The translations under genes and the position numbers were made by a program. Shown here piece after piece: positions 1-26,092 of a DNA stretch of 64,000 nucleotides; the stretch's first letter is position 1, and each line of letters opens with the position of its first letter. The stretch is from Pyruvatibacter mobilis. Its GTDB lineage: Bacteria; Pseudomonadota; Alphaproteobacteria; CGMCC-115125. A model generated the notes under the pieces. That model was not told where the DNA came from. It searched no databases and saw only the letters and a program-made list of their open reading frames with translations. The stretch lies in assembly GCF_012848855.1 (NCBI RefSeq), contig NZ_CP051630.1, positions 2,459,501 through 2,523,500 of the forward strand, given 5' to 3'.

Positions 1-380
1 ACATTGTCATGCAGGGTGCCGCCCGCATGGATATTGAGAAGCTGCATGCCCCGACAGATGCCGAGCACAGGCTTGCCGCACTCAAGTGCGTGGTCGAGCA
101 ACGCCAGCTCGAACCTGTCGCGGCTGTGGCCTGCTTCCGGGTCGGGGCGGGCCGTCCCGGCATAGACGGCCGCCGCCACATCAAGCCCGCCGGTAATGAC
201 GAACCCGTCCAGCGCTTCCACATCGGCCACCCAGTCCGGCCGCATGGAGACGGGTACACCGCCCGTCAGGCGGACGGCGAAAGCATCCACCCAGCGCTTG
301 AAGGGCCAGCGGCGGACAGAGCCGGTGATGCCGATACGAGGCCGGGCGGGACGACGGGGGCCGGTGCGGGCGGCCGGCAT
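1..380 (-). CDS. Class I glutamine amidotransferase / gamma-glutamyl hydrolase (C26, PuuD-like), 3' end cut by window edge
   Basis: Reading leftward from an ATG at 380, the first 126 residues are visible. They show a class I amidotransferase core: a beta-strand near the N-terminus (RIGITG, residues 15-20), VITGGLD at 61-67, and the nucleophile elbow GICRGMQLLN with the catalytic cysteine at residue 109. The His/Glu of the triad would lie off the window. Proteins of this PuuD/C26 family cleave gamma-glutamyl amides or supply ammonia from glutamine. The start codon overlaps the stop of the upstream amidoligase (TGATG), so the two are translationally coupled and probably act on the same amide bond. 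The identity of the substrate cannot be read from the sequence. Confidence 0.85.
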   Translation of the reverse strand, partial: MPAARTGPRRPARPRIGITGSVRRWPFKRWVDAFAVRLTGGVPVSMRPDWVADVEALDGFVITGGLDVAAAVYAGTARPDPEAGHSRDRFELALLDHALECGKPVLGICRGMQLLNIHAGGTLHDN

Positions 381-1399
381 CAGGCACCCTCCCGGCCCGA
401 CAGGGCGGCCACCACATGGGCGGGCAGGCTGCGGGCGCTGCGCCACGCCTCTGCCGCCTCATGGCGCAGCCCGTCATCGGCGGCCAGCATCTCCACCATC
501 ACCCAGCGGTTCCACTCGGTGATGGGTGACCAGTCCGGTTCGTCCAGGCGGCAATTGGGCAGGCGGTAGTGAAAGGTGGGGCGCGCGTTGATCTTCTCGT
601 CCGGCAGGGCATCGCGCACCTGGTCCTCCCTCAGGAAGGCGAAGACCGGCAGCATGTCCAGCTCGCGGTTGCGGGTGGGGTTGTGGGCGATGTAGTCGGC
701 GATCAGGGTCTCGAGGTCCGGCGCATAATCGTCGGCGGTGACGAGCGCCGTGTACTCATCCGGGAACGGATCAATGAAGGGGCCGAGCTGACGGATCAGC
801 GGGATGCCGGTCTGCTGCCGCAGCCAGTGGGACAGCAGCAAATAGGCCGACAGGACCGATGTGAGATAGGCTGCGTCGCGCCGCGCCACTTCCGGGTTGA
901 GGTGCAGGCCGAAGCCGCCGAACACGGACCGGGATGTGCCCGTGGCCCCGGCGGAGGCCAGCGCGTCGCACAGGCCGGGCAGCATGGCCACATGGGGATG
1001 CGGCATGGGCGGGGTGATGACCTCGATGGGCAGCCAGAAATCCAGCAGGTCGCCGATCAGCGGACCGGCCGTATCCGGCAGGGCTTCAAGCTCGCGGCGG
1101 ATGTCGTCCGGCGTGTTGTCAGGCAGCAGGGCCGGCCAGTCGGGCCCGACGGCGCGGAGGAAATCAGGCTTGGCCCAGCGGGTGTCCAGCTCGACAGTGA
1201 TGTCGCCGATGCGGCTGCCCATGACCTTGCTGTGGTGGCGGTCACGGGCAGCGATGTCCCCGCCCAGATTGGCCGCGACAATGGCAGCGGCATCCGCTGC
1301 CGTGAGACCGCCGAACTCGAGCTCGATTCCGAGGCGGCGGACGGCACCCTGTTCCGTTTCCGGAAGCGGCAAATCGGCTGGGCCCTTGGGTTTGCTCAT
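380..1399 (-). CDS. Amidoligase-family protein (glutamine-synthetase-like COOH-NH2 ligase)
   Basis: A 339-residue protein whose N-terminus carries GIELEFGG (residues 24-31); its glutamates match the metal/ATP-binding strand of the Amidoligase_2 family. VELDTR follows, and a GFGLHLNPEV segment near residue 165 is typical of the family. These enzymes have a glutamine-synthetase-like fold and are predicted to join a carboxylate to an amine with ATP. The gene begins 24 bases after lrgB stops and overlaps the next gene, a class I glutamine amidotransferase, by one base. A ligase/amidase pair suggests making and removing a gamma-glutamyl or peptide-like conjugate. Family assignment is firm; substrate unknown. 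Confidence 0.8.
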   Translation of the reverse strand: MSKPKGPADLPLPETEQGAVRRLGIELEFGGLTAADAAAIVAANLGGDIAARDRHHSKVMGSRIGDITVELDTRWAKPDFLRAVGPDWPALLPDNTPDDIRRELEALPDTAGPLIGDLLDFWLPIEVITPPMPHPHVAMLPGLCDALASAGATGTSRSVFGGFGLHLNPEVARRDAAYLTSVLSAYLLLSHWLRQQTGIPLIRQLGPFIDPFPDEYTALVTADDYAPDLETLIADYIAHNPTRNRELDMLPVFAFLREDQVRDALPDEKINARPTFHYRLPNCRLDEPDWSPITEWNRWVMVEMLAADDGLRHEAAEAWRSARSLPAHVVAALSGREGA

Positions 1400-1423
1400 G
1401 GACCAACAGATAGGGCGGGAGCG

Positions 1424-2107
1424 TCAGCCAAACAACCAGAGCAGCAGCCAGGGCAGCAGCAGCGCCGTGACGATGCCGTTGAGGCCCATGGCGACGCCGG
1501 AGAAGGTGCCCGTCTCCTCGCCTTCCTGAAAGGCGCGGGCGGTGCCGATGCCATGGGCGGCAGTGCCCAGCGCCACGCCATGGGCCTCCGGGTCGCGGAT
1601 GCCGAGGCGGTTGAGCAGCCAGGGGCCGAGCACCGCGCCGACAATGCCGGTGACGATGACGATGGCAGCAGCGAGTGACGGCAGGCCTGCGGTCACCTGC
1701 GCGATGCCCATGGCGATGGGGGTGGTGACGGATTTGGGTGCCAGCGACAGGAGCGACGGGATGCTCGCCCCCAGCGCCCAGGCGGAGATCAGCGCGACAC
1801 TGACCGCCGTGACGGAGCCTGCGGCGATGCCGAGCAGCAGCGGGCCAGCGGCGGCGCGCACCTTGGGCCAGTTGCGGTAAAGCGGAATGGCCAGCGCCAC
1901 GGTGGCCGGGCCGAGAAGCAGCAGCAGCCAGATGCCGCCCTCGGCATAGGTCTCATGCGGGGTGTCGGTCGCGACCATCAGCGCGATCACCGGGAGGGAC
2001 GCAACCAGCACCGGGTTTGCGAGCGGGTGACCGTTGACGCGGCGGGCGAGCGCGCGGGCGGCTGCATAGCTCACGAGAGTGACGATGATCCAGGCAAGGG
2101 CGATCAT
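1424..2107 (-). CDS. lrgB: LrgB family membrane protein
   Basis: A 227-residue hydrophobic protein with about six to seven membrane segments. The motif PKSVTTPIA (residues ~120-128) and the later HGIGTARAF are hallmarks of LrgB/CidB/YohK proteins. LrgB works with LrgA as a holin/antiholin-like or small-metabolite export pair in the inner membrane. The ATG at 2107 was chosen because it overlaps the lrgA stop by four bases (ATGA) and gives the family's usual length; the frame stays open far upstream, but only as a shadow of lrgA and dcd. It lies in a leftward run dcd-lrgA-lrgB-amidoligase-amidotransferase. Confidence 0.88.
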   Translation of the reverse strand: MIALAWIIVTLVSYAAARALARRVNGHPLANPVLVASLPVIALMVATDTPHETYAEGGIWLLLLLGPATVALAIPLYRNWPKVRAAAGPLLLGIAAGSVTAVSVALISAWALGASIPSLLSLAPKSVTTPIAMGIAQVTAGLPSLAAAIVIVTGIVGAVLGPWLLNRLGIRDPEAHGVALGTAAHGIGTARAFQEGEETGTFSGVAMGLNGIVTALLLPWLLLWLFG

Positions 2108-2487
2108 GGTGCGTGCCCGCTGCTTTTGTTCCGTGCCCAGAGAAAGACGGCGGCGGCGACAACGAGGCCTGCCAGCGTCGACAGGATGATCGCCACCGTG
2201 AGCGCCGCCCCGTCGCGCGCCAGCAGCGCCAGATGCGCCATCAGCCCGACGCCTGCGGGCACGAAGAACAGGTTGAGGTGACGCAGCAGCAGATCGGCCA
2301 GACGCCCGAGGCCCGCCGGGATGCCGCCTGAGACAGCCAGCACGCCGAGCAGCAGCACCAGCCCCGCGACGGGGCCGGGGATCGGCAGGCCGAGGCCCTG
2401 CATCGCGGCGGTGCCGATGATCTGCGCGAGGATGAGCGCCAGCGCGGCGGCGGCAAGGCCCGTGGCCGTGGTGGCACGGCGCTTCAC
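2104..2487 (-). CDS. lrgA: LrgA/CidA family holin-like protein
   Basis: A 127-residue protein with four predicted membrane helices. The segment LGLPIPGPVAGLVLLL (residues ~32-47) is the conserved LrgA/CidA core. It is expected to partner with LrgB, encoded immediately downstream with a four-base overlap. Its own start overlaps the end of dcd by four bases, so dcd, lrgA and lrgB appear to form one translationally coupled message. In this family the pair modulates murein turnover or exports small organic acids; nothing here tells which. No specific regulatory site was seen inside the operon. Confidence 0.85.
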   Translation of the reverse strand: MKRRATTATGLAAAALALILAQIIGTAAMQGLGLPIPGPVAGLVLLLGVLAVSGGIPAGLGRLADLLLRHLNLFFVPAGVGLMAHLALLARDGAALTVAIILSTLAGLVVAAAVFLWARNKSSGHAP

Positions 2488-3632
2488 CGGGACCGGCCCG
2501 GCACCGCGAAATGCTTGGAGAGCTTGAGGCCCTGGCGCTGATAGTTGGACCCAAGCTCCTGGCCATATAGCGAGGCGGGGCGCGCGGTCATGTGCTCATA
2601 GACAAGGCGGCCGATGATCTGGCCGTGCTCGAGGATGAAGGGCACCTCGTGGCTGCGCACCTCAAGCACCGCGCGGGACCCTGCGCCATCAGCTTCCGCG
2701 GCGCCGAAGCCGGGATCAAAGAAGCCCGCATAATGCACGCGGAACTCACCTACCAGCGGGTCATAGGGCACCATCTCGGCGGCATAGTCAGCGGGGATCT
2801 GCACGGCCTCGCGGCTGGCGAGAATGTAGAATTCGTCCGGGTCCAGAATGATGCGGTTCTGGCCGCGCACATGGACCGGGTCCCAGAACTCAAGCGGGTC
2901 GCAGGCGCCGACGGCGTCCACGTCGATCAGCCCGGAATGGCGTTTGGCGCGATAGCCGACGAGCCCCTCGGGCCCCTCGCCCACAAGATCCACACTCAGG
3001 GCAATGCCGCGGGTATCGTTGATGGCGTCTGACGGCGAGCCGTCCGGCACGGTCACAAGCCCTTCATCGGCCTGCAGGCGCAGCATCTCGTCCGGCGCGA
3101 CGGCGGCCTCGCCCTGGCGCAGGCGCAGCTGGGACAGGCGCGAGCCGGTGCGCACGAGAATTGAGAAGGTGCGCGGGCTGATCTCGGCATAAAGCGGGCC
3201 TGAATAGCCGTCGGCGATCTGGTCGAATTCGACAGCGCCATCGGTGATGACGCGGGTAAAGACATCAAGCCGGCCCGTCGAGCTTTTGGGATTGGCGGCG
3301 GCGGCAAGGCCCGGCGGAAGCGTGAGGCTTTCAAGCAGCGGCACCAGATAGACGCAGCCGGTTTCCAGCACCGCACCGTCGCGCAGGTCGATCTCGTGCA
3401 GCTTCAGGCTGTCGAGCTTGCGGGCCACGGGCTCGCCGGGGCCGGGCAGGAAGCTGGCGCGCACGCGATAGGCCTTCTCGCCCAGGCGCAGGTCAAGGCT
3501 CGCTGGCTGGATCTGCCGCGGGGCCAGGGGCCGGGCCAAGGTGATGACGCCTTCGTCCACGAGCGCTGCGATCTCCTGCGCGGGCAGGATGCCGGGGGGC
3601 GTGTCGGTGAGGGGGCGCGGGGCGGCTGTCAT
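2484..3632 (-). CDS. dcd: 2'-deoxycytidine 5'-triphosphate deaminase, long alphaproteobacterial form
   Basis: A 382-residue protein, about twice the length of the E. coli enzyme, as is usual for the alphaproteobacterial form that carries two dUTPase-like folds in tandem. Visible signatures are IQPASLDLRLG near residue 45 and NPKSSTGRLDVFTRVITDG near residue 115, which holds the nucleotide-binding serine and arginine. The enzyme deaminates dCTP to dUTP on the way to dTMP. The ATG at 3632 starts the conserved region; the frame remains open to 3800 but the extra residues look non-coding. It heads the leftward operon and is divergent from the metZ riboswitch region. Confidence 0.85.
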   Translation of the reverse strand: MTAAPRPLTDTPPGILPAQEIAALVDEGVITLARPLAPRQIQPASLDLRLGEKAYRVRASFLPGPGEPVARKLDSLKLHEIDLRDGAVLETGCVYLVPLLESLTLPPGLAAAANPKSSTGRLDVFTRVITDGAVEFDQIADGYSGPLYAEISPRTFSILVRTGSRLSQLRLRQGEAAVAPDEMLRLQADEGLVTVPDGSPSDAINDTRGIALSVDLVGEGPEGLVGYRAKRHSGLIDVDAVGACDPLEFWDPVHVRGQNRIILDPDEFYILASREAVQIPADYAAEMVPYDPLVGEFRVHYAGFFDPGFGAAEADGAGSRAVLEVRSHEVPFILEHGQIIGRLVYEHMTARPASLYGQELGSNYQRQGLKLSKHFAVPGRSR

Positions 3633-3822
3633 GAGGCGGGCTTTGATGATGTGGGCGCTGATTATGAACGCTCTGGGGGCGAAATCCCCGGAAATGGCGA
3701 GAAATGGTGGGTCGATGAGGGTTCTAGCATAGACCGATTCACCTGTGCTTGACCCAATTTGCGCTGAGGCGTATGACACGCCGTCGCTTGGGCGGTCCAT
3801 CGAGACCCCTCACAAGCGTATC

Positions 3823-3885
3823 CCGTGGTGATTTGAGCCGACCGGCTTGCGGCCACGTTAAACAACCGTGCTAAAAGGTCGGACG
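3823..3885 (+). promoter_or_regulatory. SAM-II riboswitch aptamer upstream of metZ
   Basis: The stretch reads CGTGG-TGATTTGAGCCG, then ACCGGCTTGCGG, CCACGTTAAACAA and GTGCTAAAAGG. CGTGG (3824-3828) pairs with CCACG (3853-3857) as P1, and the GATTTGA loop and final GCTAAAAGG match the conserved pseudoknot-forming elements of SAM-II (metA RNA). SAM-II elements typically precede methionine genes in alphaproteobacteria and turn them off when S-adenosylmethionine is plentiful. It sits about 90 bases before metZ, with an intrinsic terminator between. Pairings were read by eye, not folded. Confidence 0.85.
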
Positions 3886-3892
3886 GGCGCCC

Positions 3893-3948
3893 CCCGGCCT
3901 TTTTATGTTGGTCCGCCAGATGGCAGGCAACAGGCCGGGTTTTCTTTT
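3893..3948 (+). terminator. Candidate riboswitch-controlled terminator in the metZ leader
   Basis: CCCGGCCT (3893-3900) is complementary to AGGCCGGG (3932-3939) and is followed at once by a T-rich run, TTTTCTTTT (3940-3948). The loop is about 31 nt. Its place between the SAM-II aptamer and the metZ ribosome-binding site suggests control by premature termination rather than by hiding the start site. A competing antiterminator pairing was not demonstrated. Confidence 0.65.
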
Positions 3949-20684: not shown

Positions 20685-20926
20685 GATGATCACCCGCCGA
20701 ACGGGCCCCCAAACGCGGTCCCGGCATGCCTGGCCGGCCCGATGATTTCCCAGACCGCCGATGCCCTGCCCCGCTCTGCGGCGGGTACGGAGGTGGCGGT
20801 GTGGTCGGGCTGGCCCGGACGGGGTGAGCCGCACGCCCAAGCGGGCTGCGGCTCTGGCCGGGAGGAAAGACAAAAACGGTCCCGCCGGAAGTAAGCCTGC
20901 GGACGCCGTCATGCAAGGGCGCCGCT

Positions 20927-20979
20927 TTATCCACAGAGGAAGGCGGCGCGACGCACGAAAATCAATATATTGTGGATAA
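20927..20979. promoter_or_regulatory. Two consensus DnaA boxes in inverted orientation upstream of gcrA
   Basis: TTATCCACA at 20927-20935 and its reverse, TGTGGATAA, at 20971-20979 are both perfect nine-base DnaA boxes. They flank an AT-rich stretch and lie about 135-190 bases before gcrA. In Caulobacter DnaA activates gcrA transcription, so these are most likely transcriptional DnaA sites. Confidence 0.75.
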
Positions 20980-20989
20980 CCCCCTATAA

Positions 20990-21063
20990 AACCACAACAT
21001 CTCTTGCCGCCGGCTCAAGCGATATTGTAGGTTAACGACACGTTAACACGAGATGTTGTGGTT
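20990..21063. promoter_or_regulatory. gcrA promoter: CtrA box enclosed by a 14-bp inverted repeat
   Basis: TTAA at 21032-21035 and TTAA at 21043-21046 are separated by seven bases, the full CtrA consensus TTAA-N7-TTAA. It is enclosed by a perfect inverted repeat: AACCACAACATCTC (20990-21003) and GAGATGTTGTGGTT (21050-21063), 46 bases apart. CtrA repressing gcrA is established in Caulobacter; the flanking repeat is an additional element whose function I cannot name. The rest of 20685-21113 shows no gene. Confidence 0.75.
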
Positions 21064-21113
21064 GCCACCCGCTGGACACCACAAATTCCGGAATGGTTTA
21101 GGGGGAGCCGGCG

Positions 21114-21638
21114 ATGTCCTGGACAGATGAACGCGTTGAGCAGCTGAAGCAGATGTGGATGGACGGGCTTTCCGCCAGCCAGATCGCGGCCCGGCTGGGT
21201 GGCGTCACCCGCAACGCAGTGATCGGCAAGGTGCATCGCCTGGGCCTGTCCGGCCGCGGCGCGCCGACCCGCGTGACCCGCCGCCGCCCGGCGAGCCCGC
21301 GCACGGCGCGCGCCACAACAGCCAGCACAACGACGGCCACACCACGCCGGGAAGCCGCCAAGAAGCCGGCACCTGTCCCTGCGCCGGAACCGGAAGAAGC
21401 CGAGCTCCTCAGCGATCCCGCCACCCAGGCCAATCTGCTGGAACTCAACGAGCAGACCTGCAAGTGGCCGATCGGCGACCCGGGCGATGAGAACTTCCAT
21501 TTCTGCGGCCGCCGTTCGGCCCCTGGCCTGCCCTATTGCGCAGCCCACGCCAAGATGGCCTACCAGCCGCTGCCGTCGCGCCGTGAGCGCAAGGACAAGG
21601 CACCGCAGCGCCAGTTCCCGAACCGTATGATCGGCTAA
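21114..21638 (+). CDS. gcrA: GcrA cell-cycle regulator
   Basis: A 174-residue GcrA. The N-terminal SWTDERVEQLKQMW helix-turn-helix with GLSASQIAARLGGVTRNAVIGKVHRLGL binds DNA at methylated GANTC sites. A low-complexity Ala/Thr/Pro linker follows (~residues 50-95), then a C-terminal Cys-containing domain (CKWPIGDPG...FCGRRS...YCAAHAKMAYQP) that contacts RNA polymerase sigma region 2. It is a master S-phase regulator in alphaproteobacteria. The start is preceded by GGGGGAG. Upstream DnaA and CtrA sites match the known circuit. Confidence 0.95.
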   Translation: MSWTDERVEQLKQMWMDGLSASQIAARLGGVTRNAVIGKVHRLGLSGRGAPTRVTRRRPASPRTARATTASTTTATPRREAAKKPAPVPAPEPEEAELLSDPATQANLLELNEQTCKWPIGDPGDENFHFCGRRSAPGLPYCAAHAKMAYQPLPSRRERKDKAPQRQFPNRMIG

Positions 21639-21766: not shown

Positions 21767-22468
21767 TCAGTCGCGGAAGTGCTCATCCAGCGCGTAGCCC
21801 GCGGAGCGGACGGTGCGGATCGGGTCCTGCTCGCCGGGATTGTTGAGCGCCTTGCGGAGGCGGCCGATATGCACGTCCACCGTGCGGGCCTCCACATAGA
21901 CATCCGAACCCCAGACAGCATCCAGAAGCTGCTCGCGGCTGAACACGCGGCCGGGATGCTGGATCAGGTGATCAAGCAGGCGGAACTCGGTGGGGCCGAG
22001 ATGGATTTCCCGGTCGCCGCGGCGCACCCGGTGGGCAGCCCGGTCAACGGCTACGTCGCCGAAGGTAACGATGTCCTCGGTAAGGGCCGGGCGGATGCGG
22101 CGCAGCACCGCGCGGACGCGCGCCAGAAGCTCGGTCATCGAGAAGGGCTTGGTGATGTAGTCATCCGCGCCGGTATCAAGCCCGCGCACCCGGTCGGCTT
22201 CCTCGCCGCGCGCCGTGAGCATGATGATGGGGATGTTGCGCGTTTCACTGCGGCCGCGCAGGCGGCGGCACAGCTCGATGCCGGAGACCTGCGGCAGCAT
22301 CCAGTCCAGCAGCACCAGATCCGGCTGCTGCTCGTCGACGATCATCATCGCCTCTTCGCCATCCGCCGTCGTGGTGACGCGGTAGCCTTCCTTCTCCAGA
22401 TTGTACTGGAGCAGCGTCGTCAGCGCGGCCTCGTCCTCGACGACAAGCACTTGCGGTTGTGTCTTCAT
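21767..22468 (-). CDS. phoB: Phosphate regulon response regulator
   Basis: A 233-residue OmpR/PhoB-type regulator. The receiver domain has the acidic pocket VVEDE, phospho-acceptor aspartate in LVLLDWMLP (~res 54), and KPFS lysine. The C-terminal winged helix (~res 130-230) ends in TVDVHIGRLRKAL and RTVRSAGYAL. ATG 22468 gives the family N-terminus; 21 further in-frame residues upstream are not conserved. It is last in the leftward phoR-pst-phoU-phoB cluster, 59 bases after phoU. Confidence 0.94.
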   Translation of the reverse strand: MKTQPQVLVVEDEAALTTLLQYNLEKEGYRVTTTADGEEAMMIVDEQQPDLVLLDWMLPQVSGIELCRRLRGRSETRNIPIIMLTARGEEADRVRGLDTGADDYITKPFSMTELLARVRAVLRRIRPALTEDIVTFGDVAVDRAAHRVRRGDREIHLGPTEFRLLDHLIQHPGRVFSREQLLDAVWGSDVYVEARTVDVHIGRLRKALNNPGEQDPIRTVRSAGYALDEHFRD

Positions 22469-22527
22469 GGGTCGTGTACCGGTTGAGCTGGAGCCGGGTG
22501 CGCCGGACATGGATGCTGAGGCGAGGT

Positions 22528-23271
22528 TCATTCAGCTGTTCCTGCGTCCTTGGAGGGCATGTCCTTGGGATATTCGAGCGTGGTGACGCTCGTCGTGTCG
22601 CCCTTGGGCCGGTTCTGGCCGATATTCTCGCCCTTCACCAGGAACTGGATGGTCTCGGCGATATTGGTGGAGTGATCCCCGATGCGCTCGAGGTTCTTGG
22701 CCACGAAGAGAAGATGCGTACACAGAGAAATGGTGCGCGGGTCTTCCATCATGTAGGTAAGCAATTCGCGGAACAGCGAATTGTACATCTCGTCGATTTC
22801 CTCGTCGCGGCGCCACACCACCATGGCACGCTCGTGATCGCGCTGGGCATAGGCATCCAGCACTTCCTTGAGCTGGGTCAGCACCTGGCGGCCCATGCGG
22901 CCGAGGCCCTGCATGGCGCGGCCGGGGCTGGCCTGGTCCACGGCCTGGGCGCGCTTGGCGATGTTCTTGGCAAGGTCGCCGATGCGCTCGAGGTCAGACG
23001 AGATCTTGATGGCGGAGATGGTTTCGCGCAGGTCGATCGCCATGGGCTGGCGCAGGGCGATCAGGCGCAGGGCCTGAGCCTCGATGTCCACTTCCAGCTC
23101 ATCGATCTGCTTGTCAGAGGCAATGGTCTGTTCGGCGAGGGTGCGGTCGCGGCGGGTGATGGCGTCGATGGAATCGGCAAGCTGCCGTTCCGCAAGGCCA
23201 CCCATGCGCGCGAGGCTCTCATTGATCCGGTCAAGGGCCTCTTCGAAGGATGAAACGATATGTCCCTGCAC
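22528..23271 (-). CDS. phoU: Phosphate signalling complex protein
   Basis: A 247-residue PhoU built from two three-helix repeats. The metal-binding E/DxxxD motifs are seen in the first (ISSDLERIGDLAKNIA) and second (VAKNLERIGDHSTNIAE) halves. It links Pst transporter state to PhoR and dampens the response when phosphate is plentiful. The start is a GTG at 23271 with GGGAGAA about nine bases upstream; the ATG at 23325 would add 18 non-conserved residues. Confidence 0.92.
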   Translation of the reverse strand: MQGHIVSSFEEALDRINESLARMGGLAERQLADSIDAITRRDRTLAEQTIASDKQIDELEVDIEAQALRLIALRQPMAIDLRETISAIKISSDLERIGDLAKNIAKRAQAVDQASPGRAMQGLGRMGRQVLTQLKEVLDAYAQRDHERAMVVWRRDEEIDEMYNSLFRELLTYMMEDPRTISLCTHLLFVAKNLERIGDHSTNIAETIQFLVKGENIGQNRPKGDTTSVTTLEYPKDMPSKDAGTAE

Positions 23272-23443
23272 GTGGGTTTCTCCCGAAACGCAATGGGGCG
23301 GAGCGGCATGGATGTCATGCCGCACAGGCCCCGCCGCACCTGTTGTTGCCTTGCCGGTGGCGTGGTTGCCAGCGGGCGGAAAGTGCCAGTCTATGCCAAT
23401 TCACTGCAAAGCCAATCGGCAGATCCGCCCCGGCTGACGCGGC

Positions 23444-24259
23444 TTACCCGAAGCGGCCGGTGATGTAATCCTGCGTCCGCTCGTCGGTGGGGTTGGTGAA
23501 GATCTGCTCGGTGTCGCCCTCTTCCACCAGGATGCCAAGGTGGAAGAACGCGGTGCGCTGCGACACGCGGGCGGCCTGCTGCATGGAGTGGGTGACGATG
23601 GCGATGGTGTAGTTTTCCTTCAGCTCGTCGATCAGTTCCTCGATGCGCGCGGTGGCGATCGGGTCAAGCGCCGAGCAGGGCTCGTCCATCAGGATCACTT
23701 CCGGCGACACGGCGATGGCGCGGGCGATGCACAGGCGCTGCTGCTGACCGCCGGAGAGGCCGGTGCCCGGTTCGCCGAGACGGTCCTTCACCTCGTCCCA
23801 CAGGCCTGCACGCTGAAGGGATGTCTCGACGATCTCGTCCATCTCCTTCTTGTTGTTGGCGATGCCGTGGATGCGCGGGCCGTAGGCGATGTTGTCGTAG
23901 ATCGACTTCGGGAACGGGTTCGGCTTCTGGAACACCATGCCGATGCGGGCGCGGATTTCCACGACGTCCACATTGGGGTCGTAGATGTCGTCGCCATCGA
24001 GCTTGATGGAGCCTGACACGCGGGCAATATCCACCACATCGTTCATGCGGTTGAGGCAGCGCAGATAGGTGGACTTGCCGCAGCCCGACGGGCCGATGAG
24101 CGCGGTCACCTGGTTCTGGCGGATGTCGAGATTGACGTCGAACAGCGCCTGCTTCTCGCCGTAGAACACGTTGACGTTGCGGGTTTCCATCTTCACCTGC
24201 GCATCGGCGGGTGAGGCCTGACCGCGGGCGTGCTGTGCGATGTCTTCAGCTACTGACAT
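23444..24259 (-). CDS. pstB: Phosphate ABC transporter ATP-binding protein
   Basis: A 271-residue ABC ATPase: Walker [10 protein letters not shown], signature LSGGQQQR, Walker [14 protein letters not shown] and the switch histidine in IVTHSMQQA. The N-terminal 25 residues are a variable extension before [14 protein letters not shown]. It powers high-affinity phosphate uptake with PstC and PstA, whose genes lie just upstream in the same direction (21-base gap from pstA). Confidence 0.95.
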
Positions 24260-24280
24260 GGGTCTATCCCCTTTTGAAAA

Positions 24281-26092
24281 CTACCAGCGGCGCTCGAAGC
24301 GGCGGCGCAGGAGAACGGCAAGCGCGTTCATCAGAACAAGGAAGGTGAGCAGCACCATGATGGCGGCGCTGGTCTTGGCGACGAAGGCCCGTTCGGGGCT
24401 GTCGGCCCAGATGTAGATCTGCACCGGCAGCACGGTGGCCGGATCGGTAAAGCCGCCGGGCACGTCCACGATGAAGGCGACCATGCCGATCATCAGGAGC
24501 GGTGCTGTTTCGCCCAGCGCCTGCGCCATGCCGATGATGGTGCCGGTGAGAATACCCGGCATCGCCAGCGGCAGCACGTGGTGGGTGATGACCTGCACCT
24601 TGGAGGCACCGACGCCGAGGGCTGCTTCGCGGATCGACGGGGGCACCGCCTTGAGCGCTGCGCGGGTGGCGATGATGATCGTCGGAAGCGTCATCAGCGC
24701 CAGCACCATGCCGCCGACCAGCGGGGCGGAGCGCGGCAGGCCGAAGAAATTGAGGAACATGGCAAGACCGAGCAGACCGAACACGATGGAAGGCACGGCG
24801 GCCAGGTTGTTGATGTTCACCTCAATCAGATCGGTGATGCGGTTCTGCGGCGCGAATTCCTCAAGATAGATGGCGGCCAGAACGGCAATCGGGAAGGACA
24901 GGAGCAGGGTGATCGTCAGGGTCAGGAAGGACCCGACGACGGCGCCCCAGATGCCTGCCTGCTCAGGGGCGCGGCTGTCGCCCTTGGAGAACAGCACATC
25001 GGCGAAGGTGCTCTCGATGGAGCCGTCCTTCTGAAGCTCAAGCAGCCAGGTGGCGGTGCGGTCCTTGATCTGGCGGCCGGTTTCCGGCGTCACCAGCTTC
25101 ACCACGGTCCACTCGCCGGCCTGGGCCGGTGTGTCGCTGTCGAGCGGCACGAAGGCTTCGCCCTCGATGGTCTCGTTGCTGACGCGCAGCGCCTTCACGA
25201 TGCCGCCATTGATCTCGATGAGGATCGACGGCATGGCCTCGGTGAGGTCCAGCGTGCCGCCGCCGGAGCGGGCGGCATCGAACAGCGCCGCTGCTTCCTT
25301 GTCGAGATTGGCCGCCTTGCGGATGCGGCTGTTGATGGAGCTTTCAAGGCTCTTAATGCGGCCTTCGAGGTTCTCCCGCTCGGCACCCACCGCGTTGGCG
25401 GCGCGGGCGCGCAGGGCCTTCACGTCGTTTTCCAGCACCGTGATGCCGCGGCGTTCGCGGTTGGCGGTCTGGCCGATCTTGTCGGACTGCGCTTCCAGCG
25501 TCTGCTTCACGTCGGCGAGGATGTCGGCAAAGACATTGCCGGATGCAAGCAGGCTGAGCTCGCCCTCGGCGCCGGTGGGCGACAGTTCCGCCTTCGGCTG
25601 GTACTCGTCGATGTCGGTCATCTGGCCCTTGAGGAAGGTGTCCATGCTGTCGGAGACGGACACGGTCACCTGCTGGCGGGTGCCGATGACGGAGGGGTCA
25701 GCTTCGACGAATTCCTTCAAGGTCACGTCGGCGCCGCCTGAAAGAATGTCGGCCAGCTCACGCTTGTCGCGGCGGGCGGTGACGCTCGGGAAGCGCTCAT
25801 AGAGCGCGCGGCGGGCCATTGCCTGGAAGTTGGCGGCGCGGAGATTGTCCGGGTCGATCTCATCTGCCGGAAATTCCACCTCGATCGTCACCTTGTGCTG
25901 GGTGAACGCCGGCAGGCCCTGGGACACGATGGACCCGATAAGCGAGGCCAGCACCGCCACCGCGATGAAGATGGCGATCAGGCCATAGGCCTGAAAACGC
26001 GCCTCGGCTGCATAGCGCCGCCGCACCCGCTTGGCGGAGAGGTCGGGCTTCCGGTTGACGACGGAGCCGGTATCGGAGGTGGCGTCAGTCAT
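24281..26092 (-). CDS. pstA: Phosphate ABC transporter permease, long form
   Basis: A 603-residue permease. After one N-terminal helix (~res 35-60), about 310 residues of periplasmic, partly coiled-coil sequence (AQSDKIGQTANRERRGI... region) precede the six-helix MetI-like permease domain starting near residue 385 (GAVVGSFLTLTITLLLSFPIAV). The EAALGVGASKVQVITHHVLPLA loop is the EAA motif that docks PstB. E. coli PstA is about half this length; the long version is usual in alphaproteobacteria. It overlaps pstC by eight bases. Confidence 0.92.
   Translation of the reverse strand: MTDATSDTGSVVNRKPDLSAKRVRRRYAAEARFQAYGLIAIFIAVAVLASLIGSIVSQGLPAFTQHKVTIEVEFPADEIDPDNLRAANFQAMARRALYERFPSVTARRDKRELADILSGGADVTLKEFVEADPSVIGTRQQVTVSVSDSMDTFLKGQMTDIDEYQPKAELSPTGAEGELSLLASGNVFADILADVKQTLEAQSDKIGQTANRERRGITVLENDVKALRARAANAVGAERENLEGRIKSLESSINSRIRKAANLDKEAAALFDAARSGGGTLDLTEAMPSILIEINGGIVKALRVSNETIEGEAFVPLDSDTPAQAGEWTVVKLVTPETGRQIKDRTATWLLELQKDGSIESTFADVLFSKGDSRAPEQAGIWGAVVGSFLTLTITLLLSFPIAVLAAIYLEEFAPQNRITDLIEVNINNLAAVPSIVFGLLGLAMFLNFFGLPRSAPLVGGMVLALMTLPTIIIATRAALKAVPPSIREAALGVGASKVQVITHHVLPLAMPGILTGTIIGMAQALGETAPLLMIGMVAFIVDVPGGFTDPATVLPVQIYIWADSPERAFVAKTSAAIMVLLTFLVLMNALAVLLRRRFERRW

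Follow-up and report, generated by a model that had tools for sequence, protein, structure and literature searches.

The gcrA promoter of Pyruvatibacter mobilis raises the question of what is served by a perfect 14-bp inverted repeat that brackets its CtrA box. The first-pass annotation had read two inverted DnaA boxes at 20927 and 20971, a TTAA-N7-TTAA at 21032-21046 and the repeat itself, and had proposed that the arms act either as an RNA stem or as the site of a regulator. We analyzed the whole 64,000-nt stretch in which the promoter lies, here called the window, from a 3.33-Mb genome on a single contig, and recovered all of these elements, correct to the base, where they had been placed. 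Together with the other parts of the promoter they are:

20927-20935, plus strand: DnaA box 1, TTATCCACA; perfect, and none of its 9 columns varies among the four genus genomes
20971-20979, minus strand: DnaA box 2, TTATCCACA as read on that strand; perfect
20990-21003, no strand: left arm of the inverted repeat, AACCACAACATCTC; makes up most of NrdR-like box 2 (see below)
21004-21009, plus strand: possible −35 element, TTGCCG; assigned by eye, invariant in the four genomes
21023-21028, plus strand: possible −10 element, TATTGT; assigned by eye
21032-21046, plus strand: CtrA box, TTAACGACACGTTAA (TTAA-N7-TTAA); at the putative transcription start
21050-21063, no strand: right arm of the inverted repeat, GAGATGTTGTGGTT; core of NrdR-like box 4
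21114-21638, plus strand: gcrA coding sequence, 174 aa; PF07750, E 7.9e-56

Of nine DnaA-box matches with at most one mismatch in the window, only these two are perfect; TTAA-N7-TTAA occurs once (shuffle mean 0.04), and exact matches to the 14-mer are the two arms only. Perfect inverted repeats with arms of at least 14 bp and a loop of 10–80 are represented by this case alone, and none of 30 dinucleotide-shuffled versions of the window contained one. The possible −35 and −10 elements would put the transcription start within the CtrA box, between the two arms. A consensus promoter scan returned 0 hits, including at these two elements. Convergent with gcrA on the minus strand, at 21767-26092, are phoB, a phoU-like gene, pstB and pstA (names by eye). 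Elsewhere in the window, at 3815-3894 on the plus strand, there is an alphaproteobacterial SAM riboswitch (RF00521, 69 bits).

Conservation was assessed by aligning four promoters, which represent all available genomes of the order and belong to one genus. Conservation of the arms had been singled out by the first-pass annotation as a check, and the arms came through it intact: 0 of the 28 arm columns vary at all, leaving no room for compensatory changes, and the same constancy holds for each of the two DnaA boxes and for the 46 bp that separate the arms. One invariant block begins at NrdR-like box 1, takes in DnaA box 2 as well as the left arm, and ends at 21012; the right arm with its 16-bp box is invariant too. 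By contrast, of the 107 columns further upstream 72 vary, as do 14 of the 23 that separate the DnaA boxes and 22 of the 37 leader columns. One relative (G003) has a CtrA box with a broken half (TTCAC). GANTC (CcrM) sites are common to many gcrA promoters; 20900-21113 of this genome has none, whereas the promoters of the three relatives carry two each, a GAATC touching box 1 and a GAGTC after the left arm. These sites fall near window positions 20959-20973 and 21011-21016, both of which are without GANTC here. The exact inverted repeat is present in 4 of 385 class genomes, every one from this genus. That the arms could be two divergent sequences that arose by chance or duplication and have no function has a negligible probability, given the shuffle result and the contrast between invariant arms and diverging flanks.

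If transcription started upstream of 20990, the repeat could instead act as an RNA leader stem, in which 14 bp of pairing would hide or present a 46-nt loop. The segment 20985-21068 does fold strongly as RNA (−30.2 kcal/mol, z −4.8), and a TATAAA at 20985-20990 could belong to an upstream promoter, though a start directed by that TATAAA would land within the left arm. Against the stem, the promoter has no Rfam match at the gathering level, and the exact repeat is missing from the 381 other class genomes, where pairs of NrdR-like boxes are common. With arms that do not vary, compensatory change speaks neither for the stem nor against it. In Sinorhizobium meliloti the CtrA motif is reported to overlap the gcrA start (PMC3616915), which points to a start between the arms in this promoter too, and a transcript from the putative start has no special fold (z 0.31). 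Since the fold would be strong if the RNA began upstream of 20990, these points only weaken the stem, which we regard as highly unlikely. Of the two roles first proposed for the arms, the RNA stem lost ground and the regulator site gained it.

Looking across Alphaproteobacteria, we saw a palindrome recurring in pairs upstream of gcrA, which we took to be the box of NrdR, a repressor responsive to DNA precursors, and this assignment was then tested. At one such locus (L067), for example, CACTATATTTAGTAG and CACTAAATGTGGTGG lie 31 bp apart in the gcrA upstream region. Pairs of the core pattern CWANATNTWG were counted in the 300 bp upstream of gcrA at 79 loci, and their spacings peaked at 31 bp (26 pairs) and 32 bp (11 pairs), compared with ∼0.5 and ∼0.3 in shuffles and 2 and 0 in 237 control segments, which are mostly coding and of which at least one, for L077, overlaps its own gcrA upstream region. 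Lesser peaks occur at 41–42, 52 and 62 bp, distances close to four, five and six turns of the helix. The upstream regions of ribonucleotide reductase (RNR) genes, from which three duplicate loci were dropped, show a 31-bp peak as at gcrA (20 pairs). The spacing also emerges with no motif specified: direct self-similarity of the gcrA upstream regions is maximal at a shift of 31 (107, against a mean of 38.3 and standard deviation of 18.4), with a shift of 20 nearly as high (101).

We then scored boxes with a weight matrix for which 11 RNR promoters supplied 22 boxes, the RNR loci of the genus itself being excluded from training. In the first set of loci, a pair spaced by 31 or 32 bp exceeded the 99% shuffle quantile in 56 of 80 gcrA upstream regions, the window included, where ∼1 would be expected; among control segments of the same mostly coding kind, with the same overlap at L077, 1 of 316 did so. 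One locus (L062) was excluded from both the 79 and the 80 because it has the same promoter as G002 and was taken to be the same record. The second set came from whole genomes and comprised 86 of the 190 class genomes that have a GcrA match, the own genus being excluded and the regions being chosen manually among the matches listed; here 50 of 86 exceeded the 99% level, again with ∼1 expected, and these covered 28 of 46 families. The two sets partly share species, and species that are related do not count as independent. The remaining 18 families are without a pair above 99% (for instance f23, 0 of 4; f40, 0 of 3; f71, 0 of 3), and the Caulobacter loci score weakly with the RNR matrix (L072, 12.4; L074, 10.5; L073, 6.2). 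On the sequence evidence, we consider gcrA a likely target of NrdR in a large part of the class.

Within the window, the same matrix picks out four boxes at the gcrA promoter, none assigned to a strand:

20960-20975: NrdR-like box 1, AATCAATATATTGTGG; 16.2 bits, the top single box in the window, invariant in the four genomes
20992-21007: NrdR-like box 2, CCACAACATCTCTTGC; 9.4 bits
21015-21030: NrdR-like box 3, TCAAGCGATATTGTAG; 5.5 bits alone; its left half is weak, and it covers the possible −10 element
21046-21061: NrdR-like box 4, ACACGAGATGTTGTGG; 15.0 bits, invariant in the four genomes

The core of box 1, CAATATATTG, is a perfect palindrome, and the box overlaps DnaA box 2. Boxes 1 and 4 hold both conserved C..G positions at the ends of the 10-bp core; boxes 2 and 3 hold one of the two each, box 2 missing the conserved G and box 3 the conserved C. 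Boxes 1 and 2 (20960/20992) lie 32 bp apart and together score 25.6 bits, the best pair at 32 bp in the 64 kb, and boxes 3 and 4 (21015/21046) lie 31 bp apart and score 20.4 bits, the best at 31 bp. Among the top six pairs listed per spacing, the others reach at most 5.8 bits, apart from frames that overlap the boxes and an 11.2-bit frame consisting of box 1 and a weak partner at 20928.

Genome-wide, core pairs with up to two mismatches number three at 31 bp and one, that of gcrA, at 32 bp, against 0 and 0 for the reversed pattern. One of the three 31-bp pairs is upstream of an RNR-like gene, with one mismatch. The other two were set aside: the pair at 2927379, which in this genome is inside the rsmG coding sequence, upstream of parA (names by eye), has near-identical counterparts in the three relatives and may reflect protein conservation, and the pair at 1225382 looks like chance. 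The exact 14-mer does not define a regulon, since with up to three mismatches it occurs at 92 + 159 places in the genome versus 141 + 186 for the reversed control.

Other genes of the genus carry related arrangements. A 31-bp NrdR-like pair with three mismatches lies upstream of nrdA in three genomes of the genus. Also upstream of nrdA in the genus (L176, L177, L178) are strong boxes 21 bp apart, which corresponds to two helical turns and not three; in this genome they are between nrdA and a divergent gene. The coding sequence at 285-3119 on the plus strand of L325 (G000 C1:1722684-1725518) encodes a protein of 944 aa, a degenerate relative of class II ribonucleotide reductases, and has a good NrdR-like pair upstream. 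This protein scores 247 bits against an NCBIfam cut-off of 1737, with similarly weak matches in all four genus genomes, and by its sequence it looks like an RNR paralogue whose catalysis has possibly been lost. Upstream of ccrM in G003 (L204, 1501-1541), a 31-bp NrdR-like pair with one mismatch holds both a GAGTC and a GACTC. This pair is found in two more genus genomes (L214, L215) and is absent from the hits in the own genome; its presence in three of four genomes hints that more of the circuit may be wired to NrdR.

The regulator itself is encoded at G000 C1:1241188-1241613, after the end of a glyA-like coding sequence (name by eye). The protein is a canonical NrdR (TIGR00244, 174.5 bits) with a Zn ribbon and an ATP cone, and has D15, R17 and RRRR at 26–29, the residues that contact DNA in Streptomyces coelicolor NrdR as described in PMC9110341. 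According to the same account, the conserved C..G pairs of the S. coelicolor operator fall at 9/18 and 40/49, 31 bp apart, and inverting one GC pair per box lowers binding close to 60-fold. NrdR is reported to bind with spacers of 14–17 and 24–27 bp and about two orders of magnitude worse with others (PMC12051234), and its binding is described as requiring dATP plus ATP, or ADP in Escherichia coli (PMC12176259).

The joint presence of NrdR and the boxes across genomes is less tidy. Among six gcrA-bearing genomes in which NrdR was not detected, three have no pair (G092, G097, G206) and three keep a pair above the 95% level (G314, G111, G049), so that loss of the regulator and loss of the boxes are not cleanly matched; of the latter three, G049 is 75% complete, G111 is rated 100% and G314 has family members with NrdR. 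At L316 and L323, from two NrdR-less genomes of one family, gcrA is seemingly close behind another coding sequence, with no boxes upstream (by eye). The three retained pairs could mean that the boxes belong to another regulator that shares the NrdR motif and spacing. The arms point the same way, as their identity over 14 bp goes beyond what the NrdR consensus needs and is left without explanation by the NrdR reading. However, RNR promoters supplied the training set of the matrix, and motif and 31-bp spacing together are those of NrdR, which makes a different owner of the boxes unlikely. The regulator-site proposal of the first-pass annotation can be given a name, NrdR, by motif, spacing, RNR-trained matrix and the presence of the regulator.

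NtrX offers a second candidate, having been reported to bind gcrA promoter DNA in S. meliloti (PMC9223101), and its motif, CAAN2-5TTG, is matched in box 1 by CAATATATTG, which reads as CAAN4TTG. Boxes 2–4 in the window do not fit this motif, and it occurs in only 8 of the 100 boxes from the 50 above-threshold gcrA upstream regions of the second set, so we consider NtrX sites very improbable as an account of the four boxes. The S. meliloti case is a parallel of another kind, in that a metabolic regulator is bound directly at gcrA (PMC9223101).

Returning to NrdR, the gcrA promoter shares much with its operators on RNR promoters, as described for S. coelicolor nrdRJ and nrdAB and E. coli nrdHIEF, nrdDG and nrdAB (PMC9110341, PMC12176259): palindromic boxes with a conserved C..G ending the 10-bp core, paired over the promoter at a distance of about three helical turns. 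DnaA takes part at E. coli nrdAB too (PMC9110341, PMC12176259). What differs at gcrA is that the target is a cell-cycle regulator, that there are four boxes in two pairs, and that a CtrA box lies between them. The DnaA boxes and CtrA box recall the Caulobacter gcrA promoter, which is repressed by CtrA and for which DnaA is reported as a direct activator (PMC3193534), and the Caulobacter locus L072 carries AGAATCAATATGTTG, which resembles box 1 of the genus. NrdR is not part of the Caulobacter circuit as published in the sources cited here, and the missing GANTC sites of the present promoter are a further difference. We found no report of NrdR control of gcrA in the open-access literature searched, though a RegPrecise prediction may exist; two papers there name both NrdR and gcrA but, by title and abstract, deal with other matters. 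A paper on the NrdR regulon in Proteobacteria (PMC5343134) was not among the hits for gcrA, and its main text lacks ctrA, dnaA and cell cycle.

The computed boxes with their spacing, the resemblance to RNR promoters, the class-wide recurrence upstream of gcrA and a canonical NrdR gene all lead to one reading, to which we assign a probability of roughly 0.77: that the inverted repeat supplies the downstream box of each of two predicted NrdR operator pairs, and that gcrA is an NrdR target, repressed at high dATP, in a layer added to the DnaA/CtrA circuit. The regulator is already known; what would be new is the target and the arrangement. In such a promoter, the two operator pairs would face one another across the promoter core. 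With the −35 and −10 elements as assigned, box 3 would cover the −10 and the CtrA box the start site, with box 4 a short way downstream. When dATP is plentiful, NrdR loaded with dATP and ATP would bind and repress gcrA along with the RNR genes, and as replication draws dATP down, gcrA would be released; we infer this physiological direction, as we do the binding and repression. DnaA would activate, and CtrA would repress at the start site, alongside NrdR.

In its widest form, which we judge as apt to be wrong as right, the proposal adds NrdR to the alphaproteobacterial cell-cycle circuit as an input so far missed: in a large part of the class, this dATP/ATP sensor would repress gcrA along with RNR, making precursor consumption the licence for S-phase transcription, and in this genus it would compete with DnaA at box 1 and use a symmetric four-box operator flanking the CtrA site. 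Work in Caulobacter touches on the same coupling. There, deletion of a dNTPase is reported to raise dNTPs and to delay S phase independently of CtrA, and a double deletion of nrdR and the dNTPase gene fssC to have a stronger, synergistic soft-agar phenotype and not a suppressed one (PMC12186491). Because that phenotype is synergistic, NrdR, even if it controls gcrA in Caulobacter, would not be the simple cause of the S-phase delay. The main text of that paper has 0 occurrences of gcrA, and it describes how elevated dNTPs delay replication initiation as undefined (PMC12186491). If the proposal is true, a dNTP sensor would act directly on a master regulator of the cell cycle, and bacteria would have a checkpoint-like link between the supply of precursors and cell-cycle transcription.
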